Positions 44,020-54,211 of a stretch of 64,000 bases of DNA are shown one piece after another. Each line of letters begins with the position of its first letter. Position 1 is the stretch's first letter. This DNA is from Balneolales bacterium ANBcel1 (GTDB lineage: Bacteria > Bacteroidota > Rhodothermia > Balneolales > Natronogracilivirgulaceae), in contig JARULB010000003.1 of NCBI GenBank assembly GCA_029688905.1, positions 372,001 to 436,000 of the forward strand, written 5' to 3'. The notes under the pieces were generated by a model, which worked only from the letters and a program-made list of their open reading frames with translations, had not been told where the DNA came from and did not search any database. The position numbers and the translations under genes are program-made.

Positions 44020-44126
44020 GGTTCAATGGACTCCGGTTCGGTTTGTCGTTACTGGTAATGTCGTTATAATCATGGACAGTTCTCAATCTAACGGTGTCGG
44101 CAGAAATATTCAGAAGTTGTTCAATT

Positions 44127-45149
44127 ATGCAGATGGAACGAAAAAAAATGCTATCGTCAGTCGATCCTGCCTTAATGTGGGAATACACGCAGTTTTTATC
44201 GGTACTAAAGAAAGAGGCCGGAGCGCATGAAAGCGTTATCGGAGAAAGCGAGCAGGGTAGGCCGATATACGGGTTTGAGCTGGGCCACGGTCCGATAACA
44301 ATTAGTTTGGTTGCCGGCGCTCATGCGGATGAACCTGTTGGCCCCAACACACTATACCGCCTGATATTGTCACTTTTGCAAAACCGGCAGGCGTTTGACG
44401 GATTGCTGTCCCGTTTCCGGTTTTTGGTGATTCCGCATGTGAATCCGGACGGAGATGCGGCAAACGCTTCCTGGATAAGGCACTGGCCGGACCCGGAACG
44501 GTTTTTTTCACTGGTTGAGCGGGAGCTTCCCGGCAGGGATATTGAGTTTGGTTACCCGGATATGCGGGTGGAAAACCGGGCGGCATCGGAGTTTTGGTGG
44601 AAAAGTGGTCCTGCGGATATCCATGTAAGCCTCCACGGCATGGCCGTATCGGAAGGATTTCTGCTGCTGGTCAACGACGCGTGGGAATCGAAAACCCGCG
44701 ATTGGCGCAACCGGTTTCGCTCGGAGATGGAGCAGCAGGGGCTGATGCCGCATGATCACGACCGCGCCGGCGATAAGGGCTTCAACTACATGGGGCCGGG
44801 CTTCTCTTCAACTCCAAAAGGATCTGCCATGAGGCAGTTCTTTTTGCAGAAAGAGGACACTGAAACAGCCGCCATGTTTCGTGACAGCTCCATGGAATTT
44901 CATCTCGGGCTCAACCCTTCCGTGTTTTGTCTGGTTACGGAGTTTCCCCTGTTTCTGCTGCCACACTCCGGCAATGACGGTATTCCAAAAAATTATCAGC
45001 TATTTCGGGAAGTCTGGAAAACCGGGGGAAGCATTGCGGAGGGGCGGTTTGATGTCCGGCCGATGGCTCTTGAGAAGGCCATGGACCTTCAGCTGTACAC
45101 GGTTTTATCAGCCGCAACATTTGTAGAGGAATTTTTTGCAGATGCATAA
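44127..45149 (+). CDS. M14-family zinc carboxypeptidase-like protein
   Basis: About 340 residues. GAHADEPVGPNTLY holds the H-x2-E zinc pair, HVNPDGDAAN follows as in M14 enzymes, and VSLHGM provides the third histidine region. A glutamate in FCLVTEFPLF is in position to be the catalytic one. The frame is open from GTG 44094; ATG 44127 or 44133 is more likely. It is related in fold to succinylglutamate desuccinylase/aspartoacylase. Substrate unknown. It lies upstream of the arg operon on the same strand but is separated by a long regulatory gap. Confidence 0.75.
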   Translation: MQMERKKMLSSVDPALMWEYTQFLSVLKKEAGAHESVIGESEQGRPIYGFELGHGPITISLVAGAHADEPVGPNTLYRLILSLLQNRQAFDGLLSRFRFLVIPHVNPDGDAANASWIRHWPDPERFFSLVERELPGRDIEFGYPDMRVENRAASEFWWKSGPADIHVSLHGMAVSEGFLLLVNDAWESKTRDWRNRFRSEMEQQGLMPHDHDRAGDKGFNYMGPGFSSTPKGSAMRQFFLQKEDTETAAMFRDSSMEFHLGLNPSVFCLVTEFPLFLLPHSGNDGIPKNYQLFREVWKTGGSIAEGRFDVRPMALEKAMDLQLYTVLSAATFVEEFFADA

Positions 45150-45473
45150 GGTGCCGTTTGAAGCCGAACCGAAGATATGTCCGGTGCCGGTACTAAAGCC
45201 GGCACGTTGAAAAGTCATGAGAGACTTTCTGAGATAAGGAACAGATCGCTCATGTGACCTGGAAGCTGCATGTAGCCCACATGGTTAGTCGCTCGATACA
45301 GCCCGATCCGCCACTCTGCAGAAACCGGGATATAAGCAAGTCATATCGAGCGATAGCGGAGCATCTGACCCCGGATTTCGGAATCTAATCCATCGATTAT
45401 GCATTAAGAAGTGTTAATACTTGCAGCGGATTGATTGACATTGTTACAGATTATTCGGTTCTTCCGTTTTCTT
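45150..45473. other. Gene-free stretch with inverted repeats upstream of the arg leader
   Basis: Just after the M14 gene, GTGCCGG/CCGGCAC (around 45185-45210) can form a stem without a T-run. Further on, CATGTG (45251-45256) pairs with CACATG (45278-45283), and TCGCTCGATA (45289-45298) is the exact inverse of TATCGAGCGA (45344-45353). No protein-coding sequence is evident. The promoter of the arg operon must be here; TTGACA at 45435-45440 is the best -35-like element, but no good partner follows. Confidence 0.4.
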
Positions 45474-45569
45474 ATGAAACTGAACATGACATACAATCTT
45501 TGCAATGATAGCCGCCGTCGCCGTTTTCGCCGTCGCCTGGAAAGAGATCTGTGCAAAGATTGTGTCTGA
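45474..45569 (+). CDS. Arginine-rich leader peptide of the arg operon
   Basis: A 31-codon ORF from ATG 45474 to TGA 45567-45569: MKLNMTYNLCNDSRRRRFRR and on through R-L-E-R to CV. Eight Arg codons occur, four in a row (codons 14-17), three more at 19-21 and one at 24. Runs of codons for the operon's own end product are the mark of a ribosome-mediated attenuator. The peptide lies just before an intrinsic terminator and upstream of argG. The first arm of the RNA stem (45493-45504) is codons 7-11, just before the Arg codons; the second (45552-45563) lies near the stop codon. No Shine-Dalgarno is clear. Confidence 0.85.
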   Translation: MKLNMTYNLCNDSRRRRFRRRLERDLCKDCV

Positions 45570-45610
45570 GAAATTTGTGTATTAAATAATTGAAAGGCAG
45601 AATCTTCGCA
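45493..45610 (+). promoter_or_regulatory. Alternative stems of the arginine attenuator
   Basis: Arm 1 ACAATCTTTGCA (45493-45504) is a perfect 12-base inverse of arm 2 TGCAAAGATTGT (45552-45563). Arm 2 can instead pair with AATCTTCGCA (45601-45610), nine of ten bases, which covers the terminator loop and the end of its left arm. A ribosome stalled at the first Arg codons would cover arm 1 and free arm 2 to block the terminator. A ribosome reaching the stop codon would cover arm 2 and let the terminator form. Pairings are seen in the sequence; the mechanism is inferred. Confidence 0.75.
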
Positions 45611-45628
45611 GGTTCTGCCTTTTTTTTT
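45596..45628 (+). terminator. Intrinsic terminator of the arg leader (attenuator)
   Basis: GGCAGAA (45596-45602) and TTCTGCC (45613-45619) form a 7-bp stem, extendable by A-T pairs, with a 10-base loop, followed by nine T (45620-45628). It is the only canonical intrinsic terminator I find in the window. It follows the Arg-rich leader by 26 bases and precedes argG by about 240. Confidence 0.9.
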
Positions 45629-45692: not shown

Positions 45693-45815
45693 ATGATTAA
45701 AACCGGTCATGTCATTCTATCTGACATTAGAATCGAAGATCACGAAGTGCCCAGTGTAACGCGTAAGCGAATCGAAGATCACGAAGTGAAATCAAAAGTT
45801 TTAAACAGATGAAAT
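45693..45815 (+). repeat. Short repeat family, copy 2 (before argG)
   Basis: A 123-base unit about 93% identical (8 differences by eye) to 52584-52706 upstream of argH, in the same orientation. It contains ATGATTAAAACCGGTCAT, CTATCTGACATTA, then two exact copies of GAATCGAAGATCACGAAGTG 39 bases apart (45730-45749 and 45769-45788), and ends TTTTAAACAGATGAAAT. The left part with ATGACCGGGC, present in copies 1 and 3, is missing here. It lies between the attenuator and argG, so it is in the argG mRNA leader. Confidence 0.85.
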
Positions 45816-45877
45816 GGTGGGAAGAAATGAACGAAGCCAGATTGCCCGTATTCATTAAATGGTATAATTATGAATGA
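45809..45877 (+). CDS. 22-codon ORF overlapping the argG start
   Basis: ATG at 45809 is supplied by the end of the short repeat (AAACAGATGAAA). The ORF reads MKWWEEMNEARLPVFIKWYN then Y-E and stops at TGA 45875-45877, six bases into argG. Such an overlap would allow terminating ribosomes to restart at argG, which has no clear ribosome binding site of its own. Three Trp and one Arg codon; it does not look like an amino acid sensor. It may be chance. Confidence 0.35.
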   Translation: MKWWEEMNEARLPVFIKWYNYE

Positions 45878-47063
45878 TCCGATAGTATTGGCCTATAGTG
45901 GGGGACTTGATACCAGCTTTTGCATCCCGTACCTGAAAGAAGAATATAATAGCGATGTGCATGCCGTGATCGTGGATTGCGTGGGCCTGACCAGGGCGGA
46001 AAAGGAAGCGATCCGGGATCGCGCCTTGTCCCTTGGTGCCGCTGAATTTGCCAGTATTGACGGCTTCCCGCCGTTATATGACCACATCCTCTCATACCTG
46101 ATCAAGGGGAATGTGCTGCGCGACCGGACCTACCCGCTTTGTGTGGGATCGGAGCGCTATATCCAGGCCGAGATGATTCTGGAATATGCGAGGCAGCAGG
46201 GAACCAACCGGATTGCTCACGGCTCCACCGGGGCCGGGAATGACCAGGTGCGCTTCGACGGGGCCCTGCGAACCGGCATGCCTGATGTCGAGATAATCAC
46301 GCCTATTCGCGACAAGGAGCTGACGCGTGAACAAACGACCGCTTACCTGGCAGAGCGTGGGTTCGAAGTTCCCACGAAAACTACCAGCTATTCAATCAAT
46401 GATGGTATCTGGGGAACCAGTGTGGGCGGAACCGAGACCACCAGCAGCGACCAGGCGCTTCCATTTGAAGCTTTTCCGCATCTCAAGCCGCCTCATGAAC
46501 TGGAGGATGAACCCGAGGAGCTGAATATCGATTTTGCGCATGGCCTGCCGGTTGCGGTCAACGGACACCAAATGGACGCATCCGCACTGCTGGAGGCACT
46601 GCGTGAATTTGGGCGCTATCACGGCATTGGCATGGGGATGCATCTCGGGGATACGATTCTGGGAATCAAGGGCAGAATCGGTTTTGAAGCACCCGTAGCC
46701 AGGATCCTTTACCTGGCACACCATGAGCTGGAGAAACTGACGCTAAGCCAGGATCAGCGGCAAATCAAGGACAACCTGGCAGACCAGTATGGTGCCATGC
46801 TGCATGAAGCTCGTTTTTATGATCCGGTGATGCGTGATATCGAAGCTTTTTTCAACTCAACACAGGCGCGTGTAACCGGAGAGGTGACGCTTTATGCCTG
46901 CCGGGGCTCATTGTTCCCGCTAAAGGTATCATCCTCTTACAGCATCATGAATAATTCCGTTGCGCGGTATGGCGAAGAAGCCGGGGGCTGGAGCGGAACC
47001 GAAGCCCGGGCTTATTCCAAAATGTACAGTATCAGAACACAAATCTATAACAGGTCACGGTAA
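45870..47063 (+). CDS. argG: Argininosuccinate synthase
   Basis: Joins citrulline and aspartate with ATP. VLAYSGGLDTSFCIPYLK at the start is the ATP-pyrophosphatase loop; SERYIQAEMILEYARQQG, HGSTGAGNDQVRFD and TTSYSINDGIWGTSVGG follow. 397 residues, normal. First gene of the arg operon, about 240 bp after the attenuator terminator. The next gene begins 42 bp downstream. Confidence 0.97.
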   Translation: MNDPIVLAYSGGLDTSFCIPYLKEEYNSDVHAVIVDCVGLTRAEKEAIRDRALSLGAAEFASIDGFPPLYDHILSYLIKGNVLRDRTYPLCVGSERYIQAEMILEYARQQGTNRIAHGSTGAGNDQVRFDGALRTGMPDVEIITPIRDKELTREQTTAYLAERGFEVPTKTTSYSINDGIWGTSVGGTETTSSDQALPFEAFPHLKPPHELEDEPEELNIDFAHGLPVAVNGHQMDASALLEALREFGRYHGIGMGMHLGDTILGIKGRIGFEAPVARILYLAHHELEKLTLSQDQRQIKDNLADQYGAMLHEARFYDPVMRDIEAFFNSTQARVTGEVTLYACRGSLFPLKVSSSYSIMNNSVARYGEEAGGWSGTEARAYSKMYSIRTQIYNRSR

Positions 47064-47105: not shown

Positions 47106-48185
47106 ATGGAACTGAAAGAAATCAATGCCGATATCATCGCATCCAGTTCGGCTTCGGTTAAATTGGGTCATCGGGTGAATATCGCCCCGAATATTGTCGC
47201 TGAAGAGGGGTATCTGGTAGCAGTGAGGACGCTGGATGTCAAGGATAAATACAATACGATCGAGACCAGCGAGGGGGTCATTATTCCGTATGGCAAGGAT
47301 CAGATTGTGGTTGGTGCCCTCGGTGAGCGGCAGGCGCTGCGCGGTTACAGCGGAATCATCCCGAGGTCGGTCAAGAAAGGAGATATTCTGCATATTTTGA
47401 ATATGGGCGGAATAATCGGAAGCTGCCAGTCACCGCACCCGGATCATGGTCCGGCCATGCGGGTGGAGGTGCTGGGCGCCGTCATGATTCCCGACGATGA
47501 GGATGGAGGCGACCTGCAGAAGCATGCCTGTATCCAGGATTATGCCATCGACTGGGAATATAATCTCACCGAAAGCGCACCGCTTATTGCCGTGACCGGT
47601 ACCTGTATGCATGTGGGGAAAACGATGGCCGCAACCATGATTGTCCGCCAGCTTTCCGCCAGGGGGTACAAGGTGGCGGCGGCGAAACTTACCGGGGCCT
47701 CCCTGATGCGGGATACAAGGGAAATGAAGGAAAACGGAGCGATTGCTTCGGCTCACTTTGGTATGGCCGGCCTGGTTTCGACTACCGGCAAGAACATCCT
47801 TCCCATGGCCAAGGGCCTGATCAAGCACCTGAACAGCGTTAACCCCGATGTGATTGTACTGGAGTTCGGCGATGGTATCATCGGCGCGTATGGTGTGGAC
47901 AGCCTTTTGATGGACAAGGAGATCATGCAGTTCACCCGCACGCATGTGGTGGCCGCACAGGACTTCATGGGATGCTGGTCGGCCGATCATTTCTTCAGAA
48001 AACGTTATACCAGTTCTATATCGATCATTACGGGCCCGGTTACCGACAATTTGGTCGGGATTCAGTTTATCCAGAACACCCTTGGAATCCGGGCGGTAAA
48101 TGCCGTGGCGGATCCCAAAAAACTGGCCGATATGGTAGTTGAAATTACCTTTGCCGCGCCAACAAAAAAGGAGCCGTTTTTATGA
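47106..48185 (+). CDS. DUF1611-family protein in the arg operon, candidate N-acylglutamate synthase
   Basis: 359 residues. The N-terminal 130 residues are beta-rich; the C-terminal domain has a P-loop-like GTCMHVGKT at about 164-172, then KVAAAKLTGASLMRD and VIVLEFGDGIIG. This pattern fits DUF1611. As I recall, a DUF1611 member (DgcN) is a D-glutamate N-acetyltransferase. It sits between argG and argC, overlaps argC by four bases (ATGA), and the operon lacks argA and argJ. A glutamate N-acyltransferase feeding ArgB is therefore a reasonable hypothesis, not shown by the sequence. No GNAT acetyltransferase is in the operon. Confidence 0.7.
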   Translation: MELKEINADIIASSSASVKLGHRVNIAPNIVAEEGYLVAVRTLDVKDKYNTIETSEGVIIPYGKDQIVVGALGERQALRGYSGIIPRSVKKGDILHILNMGGIIGSCQSPHPDHGPAMRVEVLGAVMIPDDEDGGDLQKHACIQDYAIDWEYNLTESAPLIAVTGTCMHVGKTMAATMIVRQLSARGYKVAAAKLTGASLMRDTREMKENGAIASAHFGMAGLVSTTGKNILPMAKGLIKHLNSVNPDVIVLEFGDGIIGAYGVDSLLMDKEIMQFTRTHVVAAQDFMGCWSADHFFRKRYTSSISIITGPVTDNLVGIQFIQNTLGIRAVNAVADPKKLADMVVEITFAAPTKKEPFL

Positions 48186-49216
48186 GTACCGTCTATAATG
48201 TGTCGATTGCAGGTGCCAGCGGATATACCGGTATGGAAACTGTTCGAATCCTGCACGGCCACCCCAATGTGGAGATCGGCAGACTCTACGGAGCCAGTTC
48301 GGCAGGGTCGCAGTTTCATGAGCAATACAAGGCGATGCAGTCGCTGGTTGAGTTGCCCATATCGGATTTTGAGGAGCTTGCAACCGATAACTCCGACGCC
48401 ATATTTCTGGGTCTGCCCCACGGCAAATCTGCAGAAGTAGCAAAAGTCCTTTTGGACGCGGGCTACAAGGGGCGCATTATTGACATGAGCTCCGACTTCC
48501 GGCTTAAGAACCCCGCAGATTACGAAACCTGGTATGGATGGACCCACCCCCACCCCGAGCTGATCGACAAGTTTGTATATGGCCTAACGGAGTGGTTTCG
48601 CAACGACATTCGCCTCGCTTCCCATGTTGCGAACCCCGGCTGTTTTGCCAGCGCCATCCAGATGGGGCTGCTGCCCTTTGCCGGCCGCGGTCTTGTTTCC
48701 GAATGTGAGGCGATGGGGATCACCGGCTCGTCCGGATCAGGCGCTACCCCCTCTGCCGGAACCCATTTTTCAAGCCGGTTCGGTAATGTCAGGGCCTATA
48801 AAGTGTATCGGCATCAGCACATGGGCGAAGTAAACCAGAGCCTGTCCCGGCAGATTCCCGATACTGCTTTGCAGCCTAAAGTTCGGTTTATCCCGGTTTC
48901 GGGTCCTTTTGTACGGGGGATATGGATGACGCTGTCCCTGACTCTGAACCAGGATGTTCCTGCAGAGCATGTGCTTGAGGAAGAGTATTACAACGCTCCG
49001 ATGGTCCGGTTGCGGCAGGGTATGCCGGAATTGAAAGAGGTTGCCGGAAGTGCCTTTACCGATATCGGATTTGTTCAGGACGGCCGCAAGGTGGTTGTAG
49101 GTGTGGCCATCGACAACCTGCTGAAGGGAGCCGCATCACAGGCCGTTCAAAACTTCAACCTGATGTTGGAACTGCCCGAGGAGACCGGCCTGATGTTTCC
49201 TCCCGCAATTGTTTGA
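48182..49216 (+). CDS. argC: N-acetyl-gamma-glutamyl-phosphate reductase
   Basis: NADPH-dependent reductase of the third step of arginine synthesis. GASGYTGMETVRIL is the dinucleotide-binding start, HVANPGCFA holds the catalytic Cys (about residue 154), and HQHMGEVNQ gives the catalytic His region. 344 residues. The ATGA overlap with the preceding gene indicates translational coupling. After it, 116 bp contain a perfect 7-bp hairpin (49264-49283) before argF'. Confidence 0.96.
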   Translation: MSTVYNVSIAGASGYTGMETVRILHGHPNVEIGRLYGASSAGSQFHEQYKAMQSLVELPISDFEELATDNSDAIFLGLPHGKSAEVAKVLLDAGYKGRIIDMSSDFRLKNPADYETWYGWTHPHPELIDKFVYGLTEWFRNDIRLASHVANPGCFASAIQMGLLPFAGRGLVSECEAMGITGSSGSGATPSAGTHFSSRFGNVRAYKVYRHQHMGEVNQSLSRQIPDTALQPKVRFIPVSGPFVRGIWMTLSLTLNQDVPAEHVLEEEYYNAPMVRLRQGMPELKEVAGSAFTDIGFVQDGRKVVVGVAIDNLLKGAASQAVQNFNLMLELPEETGLMFPPAIV

Positions 49217-49332: not shown

Positions 49333-50364
49333 ATGAGCAGTCGACTAGATTCAGCAAGCCACTTCCTTCACCTTTCGGACTGGAACGATGCCGGGTTGCG
49401 GGAGGTGCTTGACAAAGCTAAGCAGCTTAAGGAGCAGGATTACCGCGAACCGGTCGCCCGGGGCAAGGTGCTCGGTTTGATTTTCTTCAATCCGTCGCTG
49501 CGGACCCGCATCTCGTTTGAAACGGCGGCCGTGCATCTCGGGGCCGGCTCTTCCATCATCCAGCCGGGCCAGGGTACCTGGACCTTCGAAACCCGCACTG
49601 GCGCCGTCATGGACGGTGACCGTACCGAGCATCTGAAGGAGGCCGTTCAGGTAATTTCCCGCTATGCCGATGTCATCGGGGTTCGGGCTTTTGCCGGAAT
49701 GCAGGATCCCGACGCCGATTTCGAGGACCGCTTTATCCGGGATATCGCTGAATATGCTACGGTGCCCGTAATCAATATGGAAAGCGCGCGTGAGCATCCG
49801 TGTCAGGCGCTGGCTGACGGGCTGACCATCATGGAGCGGTTCGGAAACCGGCCCGAAGGAAAAAAGTTTGTTCTGAGCTGGGCACCCCATCCCAAAGCGC
49901 TTCCGATGGCAGTACCCAACAGCGCGCTGGAAATAGCCGCAAGGCTGGGAATGGAGGTTACCCTCGCCTGCCCGCCCGGCATGGAGCCGGATCAACGGAT
50001 CCTGGACGGCATTTCGGGGCATGCTGAAAGAAACGGATCGTCGCTGGATGTCAGTCACGACCAGCAGGAGGCGTTTCAGCAGGCCGATATCATCTATGGA
50101 AAATCGTGGGCCGGGCCGCTCGTTTACCGGGACACCGAAGCCGAGCATGCCCAGCGTACCGAAACCTACGCCGACTGGACCATCAACGAGGAGAAGATGG
50201 CACTGACCAGCGACGCCGGCTTCATGCACTGCCTGCCGGTCCGGCGAAATGTCGTCGTTACCGACGGAGTGCTGGACGGACCCGGAGCAATTCACATAGG
50301 TCAGGCCGAAAATCGGCTGCACGCGCAAAAGGCGGTGCTGTTGAAACTCTGGGGCTTGTTATGA
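49333..50364 (+). CDS. argF': N-acylornithine transcarbamylase (ArgF')
   Basis: 343 residues. SLRTR (55-59) binds carbamoyl phosphate; GTWTFETRTGAVMDGD, EHPCQALADG, APHPKALPMAVPNSALE and HCLPVRRN match the acetylornithine/succinylornithine branch, not ordinary ornithine transcarbamylase. At the position said to set specificity, in MDGD-x-?-EH, acetylornithine enzymes have Glu and the Bacteroides succinylornithine enzyme has Pro (from memory); this protein has Thr98. Its acyl substrate is therefore open. ArgE downstream would remove the acyl group from N-acylcitrulline. Confidence 0.9.
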   Translation: MSSRLDSASHFLHLSDWNDAGLREVLDKAKQLKEQDYREPVARGKVLGLIFFNPSLRTRISFETAAVHLGAGSSIIQPGQGTWTFETRTGAVMDGDRTEHLKEAVQVISRYADVIGVRAFAGMQDPDADFEDRFIRDIAEYATVPVINMESAREHPCQALADGLTIMERFGNRPEGKKFVLSWAPHPKALPMAVPNSALEIAARLGMEVTLACPPGMEPDQRILDGISGHAERNGSSLDVSHDQQEAFQQADIIYGKSWAGPLVYRDTEAEHAQRTETYADWTINEEKMALTSDAGFMHCLPVRRNVVVTDGVLDGPGAIHIGQAENRLHAQKAVLLKLWGLL

Positions 50365-50401: not shown

Positions 50402-51343
50402 ATGAAAGAGAAACAGGCGGATACCATCATAATTAAGCTGAGCGGCAATGTGATCGCGGATTCCAGCGCGCTCGGAAAACTCGCTGAATACATCATCCGT
50501 GAGAGAAATGCGGGCAAACGGATTGTGCTGACCCACGGCGGCGGCAAGCAGATCACCGGGTTGAGCAAACGGCTGAAGATACCCGTACAGCAAGTGGCCG
50601 GACGGCGCATCACCAATGACGACACCCGGGAGGTTCTGCTCTATACCGTCGGAGGCAAAGCCAATCGCGAACTGGTTGCTTTCCTCAGGAAGCAAGGCCT
50701 GTCGGCCGTTGGTATTTCCGGCGTGGATGGAGGCCTGACCACCTCGCACCGCAGGCCCCCGTTTGATATCGACGGAGAGCCCGTTGACTTCGGCCTGGTC
50801 GGTGAAATTGATGCCGTTGACACCACTCTGCCCAAAGCCCTGCTGGATTCCGGGTTCATCCCTGTCATCGGATGCCTGACATGGTCACGTGACGAGGGGG
50901 TGCTCAATGTAAATGCCGATACTTTCGCCATCCGAATCTCCCTGGCGATGCAGGGGGATGAACTGATTATGCTGATGGATCCGCCGGCAGTGCTGGATGC
51001 CGCTCAAAAGCCGATCGCAACGATGCGACGGACCGACTGGCAGCTCGGCCTCAGGGAGGGCTGGGTCAGGGACGGGATGAAGCCGAAACTGTTGACCGCG
51101 TTTGAAGCATTGGAAAAAGGGATTCCGTTGGTGAGAATGACCAATGCGGATACCCTTGCAGCCGGTGGCGGCACACGCCTGGTCGCAGACGACCGGGAGC
51201 CCGGCCCCTCCGGCACTCACCCGGATCACGGCCCCGGTTTCGGTCCGGACGACGGTTCCGATCCGGGCGACGGTTCCGGTCCCGATTCCGATAACCCGGA
51301 GGTGCCGCCCCCTTCCCGCCCCTCCGATGAGGGAATAAACTGA
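50402..51343 (+). CDS. argB: Acetylglutamate kinase with a long disordered tail
   Basis: Phosphorylates N-acetylglutamate (or another N-acylglutamate). KLSGNVI near the start, THGGGKQI, and NVNADTFAIRISLAM are the amino-acid-kinase fold signatures. The core ends at GGGTRLVA, about residue 262, the normal end. Residues 263-313 are an added Gly/Pro/Asp/Ser-rich tail that looks unstructured. No N-terminal helix typical of arginine-inhibited forms is visible. It is 37 bp after argF'. Confidence 0.93.
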   Translation: MKEKQADTIIIKLSGNVIADSSALGKLAEYIIRERNAGKRIVLTHGGGKQITGLSKRLKIPVQQVAGRRITNDDTREVLLYTVGGKANRELVAFLRKQGLSAVGISGVDGGLTTSHRRPPFDIDGEPVDFGLVGEIDAVDTTLPKALLDSGFIPVIGCLTWSRDEGVLNVNADTFAIRISLAMQGDELIMLMDPPAVLDAAQKPIATMRRTDWQLGLREGWVRDGMKPKLLTAFEALEKGIPLVRMTNADTLAAGGGTRLVADDREPGPSGTHPDHGPGFGPDDGSDPGDGSGPDSDNPEVPPPSRPSDEGIN

Positions 51344-51352
51344 TTTCTTGTC

Positions 51353-52480
51353 ATGGATTTTCTGAAAGACATATCGGCGGTCGCGCTTCTGAAAGAGCTG
51401 ATTCGCTTTCCAAGCGTCAGCACGAAGGAGAAGGAGCTGGTGGATTGGCTTGAGTCGCAGGTGGCCGCAACCGGACTTCTGGAGGTGGAAAGGCACAAGG
51501 ATAATCTGATATTTCATTTGGGCTCGGGAAGACCCTGGATGCTGATGAATTCTCACTCGGATGTGGTTCCTCCATCTGCCCGTCATGCGGGCGACCCTTT
51601 TGAACCCGTGGAAAGAGAGGGGCGGATCTATGGGCGGGGCAGCACCGATGCCAAGGCGTCGGTCAGCAGCATGCTGGTCGCGCTGCTCGAAATGGCCCGC
51701 ACGGGATACCGGCCACAAGGTCGGGTGAGCCTGGCCGTGACGGTTTGCGAGGAGAGCGCCGGTTACAACAACGGCATGGCGTATTTGAGGGAAATCATTG
51801 AGCCCCCGGATGCCGCCTTGATCGGTGAACCGACAATGCTCCACCCGTGTGCCGCGCAAAAGGGCCTGCTGGTGCTGAAGCTGGAGACCGAAGGCGAAGC
51901 GGGACACGCGGCCCGTGTTACCGGTCCCAACGCAATTTACGAAATGGCTTCCCGGCTGGAGCTGCTCAAAGCCGTCGACTTCCCCGATGAAAATCCATTC
52001 CTGGGAAAAACCCGGATTACACCGACGACGATCGAAGGAGGAACGACACGCAACGCGTATCCGGACTCCTGCAGGGTGTATCTGGATATCCGCACCATTC
52101 CCGAGGTGCCGAACGAGGTCATCATTGAACGGCTGCGGAAAGTGCTTCAGATCCCCGTGGAGATTCACAGCGACCGTTTCGTCTCCACCAGCACCGATCC
52201 GTCGCATCCGGTGGCCCTGGCTGCGGAAGAAGTAACGGGCAATCCGCTGTTTGGCTCGCCGACCAGCTCCGACTGGGTATTCCTGTCGGATGTGCCGGCA
52301 ATTAAAATCGGACCGGGCAACAGCAGCGACTCTCATACGGCCAACGAATCCATTGCCGTTGAACAGGTTGAAAAAGCCGTGCCGGTCTATCAGAAAATCA
52401 TCAAACGCTTTTTTGAACGAATTCACAACCATGAAGATGGAGACGGACAAAGCCGCAGTGCGGCCACCGGATCACCGTAA
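51353..52480 (+). CDS. argE: M20-family deacylase ArgE (N-acylornithine/N-acylcitrulline deacetylase)
   Basis: 375 residues of the ArgE/DapE peptidase family. MNSHSDVVPPS and GRGSTDAKASVSSML give the first metal ligands, VCEESAGYNNG the catalytic Glu, and SDSHTANESI the last His. In organisms with N-acetylornithine transcarbamylase this enzyme acts on N-acetylcitrulline. It begins 9 bp after argB. A 219-bp gap with a repeat follows before argH. Confidence 0.9.
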   Translation: MDFLKDISAVALLKELIRFPSVSTKEKELVDWLESQVAATGLLEVERHKDNLIFHLGSGRPWMLMNSHSDVVPPSARHAGDPFEPVEREGRIYGRGSTDAKASVSSMLVALLEMARTGYRPQGRVSLAVTVCEESAGYNNGMAYLREIIEPPDAALIGEPTMLHPCAAQKGLLVLKLETEGEAGHAARVTGPNAIYEMASRLELLKAVDFPDENPFLGKTRITPTTIEGGTTRNAYPDSCRVYLDIRTIPEVPNEVIIERLRKVLQIPVEIHSDRFVSTSTDPSHPVALAAEEVTGNPLFGSPTSSDWVFLSDVPAIKIGPGNSSDSHTANESIAVEQVEKAVPVYQKIIKRFFERIHNHEDGDGQSRSAATGSP

Positions 52481-52542: not shown

Positions 52543-52705
52543 GAAATGATCATGACCGGGCGGGTATCAGGACACATAGACGCATGATTAAAACCGGTCA
52601 TATCATACTATCTGACATTAGAATCGAAGATCACGAGGTGCCCAGAGTAACGCGAAAGCGAATCGAAGATCACGAGGTGAAATCAAAATTTTTAAACAGA
52701 TGAAA
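52543..52705 (+). repeat. Short repeat family, copy 3 (before argH)
   Basis: Begins with GAAATGATCATGACCGGGC as in copy 1, contains ATGATTAAAACCGGTCAT and CTATCTGACATTA, then GAATCGAAGATCACGAGGTG at 52621-52640 and 52660-52679 (39-base spacing as in copy 2), and ends TTTAAACAGATGAAA. The ATG of that end is the argH start codon (52700). Same orientation as copy 2, 6.9 kb apart. Confidence 0.85.
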
Positions 52706-54211
52706 ACACTATGGCAAAAAACGGAAGGAAAAACCGGCGCCCGGGAGCACTCTCAGTCAGACCGGACCTGGTTCTACCGTTTTACGGCGGAAGAGGACCG
52801 GGAACTCGACCGGAACCTGGTCCCGTATGACATCCTGGTGAACCTGGCCCAGGCGCGCATGCTTCTCCGCGTCGGAGTGTATGACCAGCCGGGCTATGAA
52901 AAAGTGGTCTCCGCATTGAGGAACGCCTGGCAGGAATGGGAGGATGGAGCCTTCGGTCTGGGTCCGGATGACGAAGATGTCCACTCCGCCGTGGAAAAGT
53001 ACGTGACGGAGAAAGCCGGCCGGGATGGCGCGCGTATCCACACGGGCCGCTCCCGAAATGACCAGGTACTGGCCGACATGCGGCTGTTCATGAAAAAATC
53101 GATTGTTGATATCGCTGCGGAGTGGCTTTCCGTGGCAAACCGCCTGGCGGGAATTGCCGAATCGTACAAGGGCGTCTTTTTTGCCGGAATGACCCACACC
53201 CAGCCCGCCATGCCCCACTCGGTGGATGCATGGGCCGCCGGGTATCTGGATCTGCTGGCATCGGACCTCAAGGCGCTGCAATCGGCATTCACGCTGGTGG
53301 ATCGGTCACCGCTGGGAAGCGCCGCGGGATACGGAGTCCCCTACATCCGTGTGGATCGGGAATATGTTGCCGGGCAGCTGGGCTTTGCCAGTGTGCAGGA
53401 GCCGGTTGCGGCCTCCCAGTTGTCCAGGGGCAGATTTGAAATGCAGGTGGTGGATGCACTGGCCTATGGTGCGCTGACGTTCAACCGGATGGCTTCGGAT
53501 GTCGTGCTGTTCATGCACCCCTCCTGGTCGCTGGTAACCCTCAGTGAAGACCAGGTGTCGGGCAGCAGTATCATGCCGCAAAAGCGTAACCCCGATGCGT
53601 GGGAACTGATTCGTGGCGCGTACCATGATTTTCAGGCCGCAAGAACACACCTGGCGGGTATTCCGGCAAACCTGGGTTCGGGTTATCACCGCGACCTGCA
53701 GGTAGTGAAAAAGAGTGTGGTTTCTGCCGTTCGGCAATCCATGATGCTGGCCGAAGCGGTGCGCCACGCGCTGTCGGGCCTTGAGTTCAACCGCGACCGT
53801 GCACGCAGCAGCCTGACACCGGATGTCTATGCCACGCATGAAGCCAACAGGCTGGTTGCCGGAGGCATGCCCTTCCGCGAAGCGTACCGGAAGGTTGCGG
53901 AACGGCACGGCGCGGAGAGCAGACAGAGCGCTGCGGACCCGGAAGATGCAGCCAACCAACAGGGCTCGGCCGGCAGGGAGGGTGACACAGGGCAGCAGGA
54001 TGTGCCCGGGAAGTCCGATACCTCGCAACCGGCGACTTTCCGGGAGACTTTGGGTGCCACAGAGCAGGTAGGAAAAACAGTTTACCATCACAGCGGCGCG
54101 CCGGGATCCGGAGTGCCGGAGGCGCTTCTTGGAGCCGTCAGGGAATCGGAACAATGGACGGAGGCCAGAAAAAACGAATGGGAACGGACCAAAGCGAATC
54201 TCTTGTCCTGA
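52700..54211 (+). CDS. argH: Argininosuccinate lyase with a C-terminal low-complexity insert
   Basis: Splits argininosuccinate to arginine and fumarate. DEDVHSAVEKYV, HTGRSRNDQVLADMRL, FFAGMTHTQPAMPHSV and the signature GSSIMPQKRNPDAWEL are present. Length 503, longer than the usual 460 because residues about 409-452 (AESRQSAADPEDAANQQGS onward) are a hydrophilic insert before the last helices. The start codon lies within the end of the short repeat, and no separate ribosome binding site is seen. It may have its own transcript start given the 219-bp gap after argE. Confidence 0.95.
   Translation: MKTLWQKTEGKTGAREHSQSDRTWFYRFTAEEDRELDRNLVPYDILVNLAQARMLLRVGVYDQPGYEKVVSALRNAWQEWEDGAFGLGPDDEDVHSAVEKYVTEKAGRDGARIHTGRSRNDQVLADMRLFMKKSIVDIAAEWLSVANRLAGIAESYKGVFFAGMTHTQPAMPHSVDAWAAGYLDLLASDLKALQSAFTLVDRSPLGSAAGYGVPYIRVDREYVAGQLGFASVQEPVAASQLSRGRFEMQVVDALAYGALTFNRMASDVVLFMHPSWSLVTLSEDQVSGSSIMPQKRNPDAWELIRGAYHDFQAARTHLAGIPANLGSGYHRDLQVVKKSVVSAVRQSMMLAEAVRHALSGLEFNRDRARSSLTPDVYATHEANRLVAGGMPFREAYRKVAERHGAESRQSAADPEDAANQQGSAGREGDTGQQDVPGKSDTSQPATFRETLGATEQVGKTVYHHSGAPGSGVPEALLGAVRESEQWTEARKNEWERTKANLLS

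Follow-up and report, generated by a model that had tools for sequence, protein, structure and literature searches.

The argG gene of Balneolales bacterium ANBcel1 is preceded by a short, arginine-rich reading frame whose RNA can fold into an intrinsic terminator or a competing antiterminator, and this leader very probably regulates the arginine operon behind it by ribosome-mediated transcription attenuation, with charged tRNA-Arg as the signal. Arginine biosynthesis is the textbook case of control by the ArgR repressor; what we describe is most likely a switch of a familiar type, here with arginine as its signal, used across a class that is almost entirely without ArgR. In the window (the whole stretch of 64,000 nucleotides that was analysed) the leader lies between the gene for an M14 carboxypeptidase (44094-45149) and argG (45870-47063), and it comprises the following elements.

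45435-45440, + strand: putative -35 element TTGACA, beginning 39 nt before the leader ATG
45493-45504, + strand: region 1, partner of region 2 (at 45552-45563)
45513-45536, + strand: control codons, Arg 14-17 at 45513-45524 and Arg 19-21 at 45528-45536, all CGC or CGT
45543-45545, + strand: extra Arg codon, AGA, in the leader ORF sequence
45547-45567, + strand: region 2, the final codons of the leader ORF, with region 1 or region 3 as its partner
45593-45628, + strand: intrinsic terminator, 13-bp stem (45593-45605 with 45610-45622) and loop TCGC
45595-45613, + strand: region 3, the antiterminator partner that pairs with region 2, comprising the left arm and loop of the terminator

The leader ORF (45474-45569, + strand) has 31 codons, running from an ATG at 45474, with a second ATG in frame at 45486, to a TGA at 45567-45569, and its product is MKLNMTYNLCNDSRRRRFRRRLERDLCKDCV. 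Arginine is specified by codons 14-17, 19-21 and 24. Among the short ORFs of the 64-kb window only the leader has seven Arg in eight residues, and five shuffled windows yielded no short ORF of this kind. On its own, a stretch of four CGY codons carries no information at genome scale (41 sites versus 62 in the reversed control). The Arg run is flanked by a perfect 12-nt inverted repeat (45493-45504 and 45552-45563), and a repeat of such length arose in one of 300 dinucleotide shuffles of the region. The ORF, its Arg positions, the inverted repeat and the terminator had all been predicted earlier and are present in the DNA at the predicted coordinates.

The terminator hairpin reads AAAGGCAGAATCT-TCGC-AGGTTCTGCCTTT (45593-45622) and runs into a tract of nine T (45620-45628). 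The original prediction had counted these nine T correctly but had given the stem only 7 bp; a G-U and two further pairs above, and three A-U pairs below, extend it to 13 bp. The duplex of region 2 with region 3 has a dG of -20.4 kcal/mol and a shuffle z of -4.4. Its target had been placed at 45601-45610, and these bases are indeed paired, but that segment is too short, as 45595-45599 pair too, giving 45595-45613 overall. Nor does the antiterminator touch mainly the loop and the last two bases of the left arm, as had been claimed: nearly the entire left arm is paired. The earlier doubt about exclusivity stemmed from taking the stem as 7 bp; judged from the pairing, antiterminator and terminator are clearly mutually exclusive, sharing nearly the whole left arm. 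The duplex of regions 1 and 2 has a z of -3.4 in the window and is weak or absent in several relatives.

We modelled the folding of the RNA that a ribosome leaves free, either stalled at the start of the Arg run, with the transcript made up to the terminator loop, or positioned at the stop codon, and of the RNA without any ribosome. When the ribosome is stalled, pairing of region 3 with region 2 has a mean probability of 0.81 in the window and a median of 0.91 over 23 leaders; with the ribosome at the stop codon, the terminator has a probability of 0.95. The state with no ribosome is a mixture of folds, with a median of 0.62 for the pairing of region 3 upstream. At equilibrium the fully transcribed leader has two folds near in energy, and the states are poorly separated, which is what a co-transcriptional decision would predict; folding only up to the terminator loop does separate them. 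Coordinates and folds together present the features of an attenuator: a leader ORF with cognate codons, an intrinsic terminator, an antiterminator that excludes it, and positions compatible with control by a ribosome at the stall or the stop.

We propose that a ribosome would translate the leader while RNA polymerase transcribes it. With ample Arg-tRNA, the ribosome would clear the Arg run, reach the stop codon at 45567-45569 and mask region 2; region 3 would then pair with the right arm, the terminator would form and transcription would end before argG. With Arg-tRNA scarce, the ribosome would stall in the Arg run and region 2 would stay free to capture region 3 once it is transcribed, blocking the terminator and permitting transcription of argG to argH. 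If the leader is not translated, region 1 may hold region 2, which would favour termination; of all parts of the model, this putative role of region 1 as an anti-antiterminator is the least secure.

The leader is real, conserved in relatives and most likely functional. Searches with argG gave 23 distinct Balneolales upstream regions for comparison. The Arg run is kept in 22 of these 23 distinct leaders, taking forms such as RRRRFRRR, RRLRRRR, RRIRRRR, RRRLRR, RRRR and RRVR, while the remaining peptide diverges; the 22 leader peptides are 21-34 residues long, and a terminator comes after each of them, at 20 to 250 nt upstream of argG. We aligned the 23 leaders without structure information (alignment A1). 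Over this alignment the 2:3 helix has 89.7% standard pairs and both-side changes at 10 of its 14 pairs, and none of 500 shuffles reached as high a value; when the partner is slid, standard pairing falls to 38-53%, a control that retains the relatedness that the shuffles ignore. The 3:4 (terminator) helix has 97.0% standard pairs, with both-side changes at 6 of 13 pairs. Swapping region 2 and terminators among distant lineages weakened most pairings. RNAalifold, applied to the leader alignment, yielded only the terminator, an expected outcome because the two helices exclude each other. With both alternative helices covarying and the run in 22 of the 23 leaders, the comparison with related genomes proposed in the original prediction brought no refutation.

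In one of the leaders (L033) the reading frame stops before region 2, yet the region 2 RNA is intact, which means that it is conserved as RNA and not for the peptide. One relative (L018 / L047) retains the RNA arms of both terminator and antiterminator and has lost the Arg run from its leader ORF, which may reflect decay, an assembly error or a different signal.

The repressor itself is almost entirely missing from this branch. ArgR (PF01316) was found in none of 60 relatives, this genome included, and within the class 194 of 196 genomes were without it; its C-terminal domain (PF02863) was found in none of 26, and the controls were positive. One exception in the class (G200) has ArgR directly upstream of argG, and no leader was found there. 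The other (G065) has five identical short ORFs that match the ArgR DNA-binding domain (L109-L112), copies that are perhaps part of a mobile element. In a sample of the phylum, 46 of 118 genomes carry ArgR, in most cases shortly upstream of an argG of another type. Attenuation would explain how a branch without ArgR can regulate its arg genes, and the Bacteroidota are a natural setting in which the two modes of control, ArgR and attenuation, can be compared within a single phylum.

The same peptide could in principle act as an arrest peptide, its Arg-rich nascent chain stalling the ribosome, whether free arginine triggers the stall or the charge of the chain causes it at all times, and so setting the readthrough. 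Seven Arg in eight residues are indeed strongly basic, and ribosome-stalling leader peptides are known, but beyond the Arg run the peptides show no conserved sequence and differ in length and C-terminus, and some runs are only RRVR or RRRR. A stall at plentiful arginine would moreover switch the operon on, which, judged from the folds, is the wrong sign for this geometry, and we consider such arrest very improbable. We give still less credence to a metabolite riboswitch or a T-box to which the ORF is incidental: arginine genes elsewhere can be under T-boxes (PMC1262725), but an Rfam scan at gathering score gave no match in the window, and it is the codons and the competing arms that are conserved while the rest of the leader diverges.

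Least probable of all is a plain intergenic terminator beside a chance ORF, with no regulation. Intergenic regions often contain inverted repeats and terminators; conservation of the Arg run together with an exclusive antiterminator and its compensatory changes argues otherwise, and a constitutive stop 20-250 nt before an essential operon would silence that operon. Attenuation through Arg-tRNA also agrees with codon usage. In genes sampled within the window the commonest Arg codon is CGG (36%), in contrast to the CGC and CGT of the leader run; elsewhere the codons of the run are often CGA, in a second order that we take to be the Rhodothermales, and CGG, in GNAT-type leaders. The codon thus varies while the amino acid is constant, which fits the sensing of Arg-tRNA.

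Among known systems, the fungal arginine attenuator peptide (arg-2/CPA1) is likewise an upstream peptide that controls an arginine gene, as we propose here; unlike this leader, it is a eukaryotic arrest peptide that acts on translation and responds to free arginine. With the classical attenuators of trp, his, leu, thr, ilv and pheA (PMC1183508) the leader shares the ORF with cognate codons, the exclusive antiterminator, the intrinsic terminator and the biosynthetic operon. It differs from them in that arginine would be sensed and the leader mRNA is probably almost leaderless, in that the loop of the 1:2 hairpin, rather than an arm, carries the control codons, and in that region 2 falls within the ORF, immediately ahead of its stop codon. 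That the layout is of the his and leu type with arginine as the sensed amino acid, as first suggested, is borne out by the conservation, the covariation, the folds and the absence of ArgR.

Two bacterial leaders come close in what they sense. Salmonella speF has a leader ORF, orf34, in which Arg codons likewise let arginine be sensed by ribosome pausing, but its target is an ornithine decarboxylase, it works through Rho termination, RNase G and translation, and it has two Arg codons and no intrinsic terminator switch (PMC6386406). The rbfL leader peptide of Staphylococcus aureus also contains Arg codons and responds to arginine limitation; there, unlike here, the stall blocks translation of rbf, a biofilm regulator, so that the sign is opposite, and no arg operon is involved (PMC13009471). 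Arginine-dependent control of arg genes is otherwise exerted by a protein repressor (ArgR/AhrC) or by a tRNA-binding RNA, the arginine T-boxes (PMC1262725); the same 2005 work assigns attenuators to his, thr and phe and T-boxes to arginine. The transcriptome study of Flavobacterium psychrophilum describes unnamed leader-peptide attenuators upstream of amino acid operons (PMC9723704). In the open-access literature we found no earlier report of an attenuator for bacterial arginine biosynthesis, in agreement with the original remark that no such leader had been described in this group, and priority is not certain. Arginine would join the short list of amino acids that a ribosome switch senses for their own synthesis.

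A TTGACA-like element lies 33-40 nt upstream of the leader ATG in most argG-type leaders, compared with 2 of 64 control ORFs; a sigma-70 scan of the region under a strict -10 rule gave no promoter. With the usual promoter spacing, transcription directed by TTGACA would begin no more than a few bases from the ATG, so that the leader mRNA is probably almost leaderless. Such mRNAs without a leader are rare among Bacteroidetes, accounting for 5.5% in F. psychrophilum (PMC9723704), and in B. thetaiotaomicron 3.7% of 5' UTRs are shorter than 10 nt (PMC7366714). A precedent is rhizobial trpL, whose leader transcript begins at the ATG of the leader peptide, like the start proposed here; unlike our leader, it senses tryptophan (PMC7298713).

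Most other Balneolales examined also have Arg-run leaders upstream of arg operons, at differing operon starts. Some (L060-L068 and L101-L105, e.g. MNLFTHDITAILRRRRPLGV) lie upstream of an argF-like gene and have a terminator; taken alone, their short 2:3 pairing does not reach significance. In most of one Balneolales family an Arg leader without a T tract precedes a GNAT gene, which is followed by argG (e.g. MQKSLAHRIERPTTRRIPRRR). The Arg peptides of GNAT-argG leaders (L026-L030, L049-L059, L095, L097 and L107) end in or near RRR, with a hairpin 3' of the stop codon; the two arms of the inverted repeat TAGAATTGA/TCAATTCTA of GNAT-argG leaders change together (TAGGAT/ATCCTA), and in place of a T tract there is a stretch rich in C and poor in G. 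Hairpin and C-rich, G-poor tract without a T tract suggest that these leaders may use Rho-dependent attenuation.

Among the Rhodothermales, 18 of 21 argG upstream regions contain an Arg-run ORF, mostly with a terminator, and half of these Arg-run leaders (9/18) have a 2:3 pairing z of -2 or lower, e.g. GACCGGATGGA/TCCATCCGGTC in L094. Bacteroidia without ArgR often have, at a looser threshold, an Arg-rich short ORF 100-250 nt before GNAT-argG (L113, L114, L120, L122, L125, L127, L128, L130 and L132); as candidate leaders these are only a lead. We tentatively entertain, as a possibility somewhat short of even, that Arg-codon leaders, often almost leaderless, are a general replacement for ArgR in Bacteroidota that lack it. 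The sensor would be constant and the output would vary: the Rhodothermales and a large number of Balneolales would rely on intrinsic terminators, placed upstream of argG or of an argF-like gene, and Rho would probably act in most of the Balneolaceae type and in ArgR-less Bacteroidia, where GNAT-argG has no T tract.

Inspection of this genome's his and ilv/leu operons showed no similar leader; no tRNA genes were found in the window. Downstream of the leader, the predicted argG and six more genes are present, in the order argG-DUF1611-argC-argF'-argB-argE-argH, with profile matches above or below cut-off as listed.

45870-47063, + strand: argG, argininosuccinate synthase, first operon gene (TIGR00032, above cut-off)
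47106-48185, + strand: DUF1611/CbiA-like P-loop protein (weak Pfam matches, below cut-off)
48182-49216, + strand: argC (TIGR01850, above cut-off)
49333-50364, + strand: argF', N-acetylornithine carbamoyltransferase (NF003384, above cut-off)
50402-51343, + strand: argB, acetylglutamate kinase (TIGR00761, above cut-off)
51353-52480, + strand: argE/dapE-family deacylase (TIGR01910, below cut-off)
52700-54211, + strand: argH, argininosuccinate lyase (TIGR00838, 264.7 bits, slightly below the cut-off of 279.5)

The DUF1611/CbiA-like P-loop gene sits within the arginine operon, between argG and argC. Two gaps of the operon region (45731-45788 and 52622-52679) each hold a pair, 39 nt apart, of the 19-nt repeat AATCGAAGATCACGAAGTG, which has 17 copies genome-wide (up to 2 mismatches), often paired or tripled.
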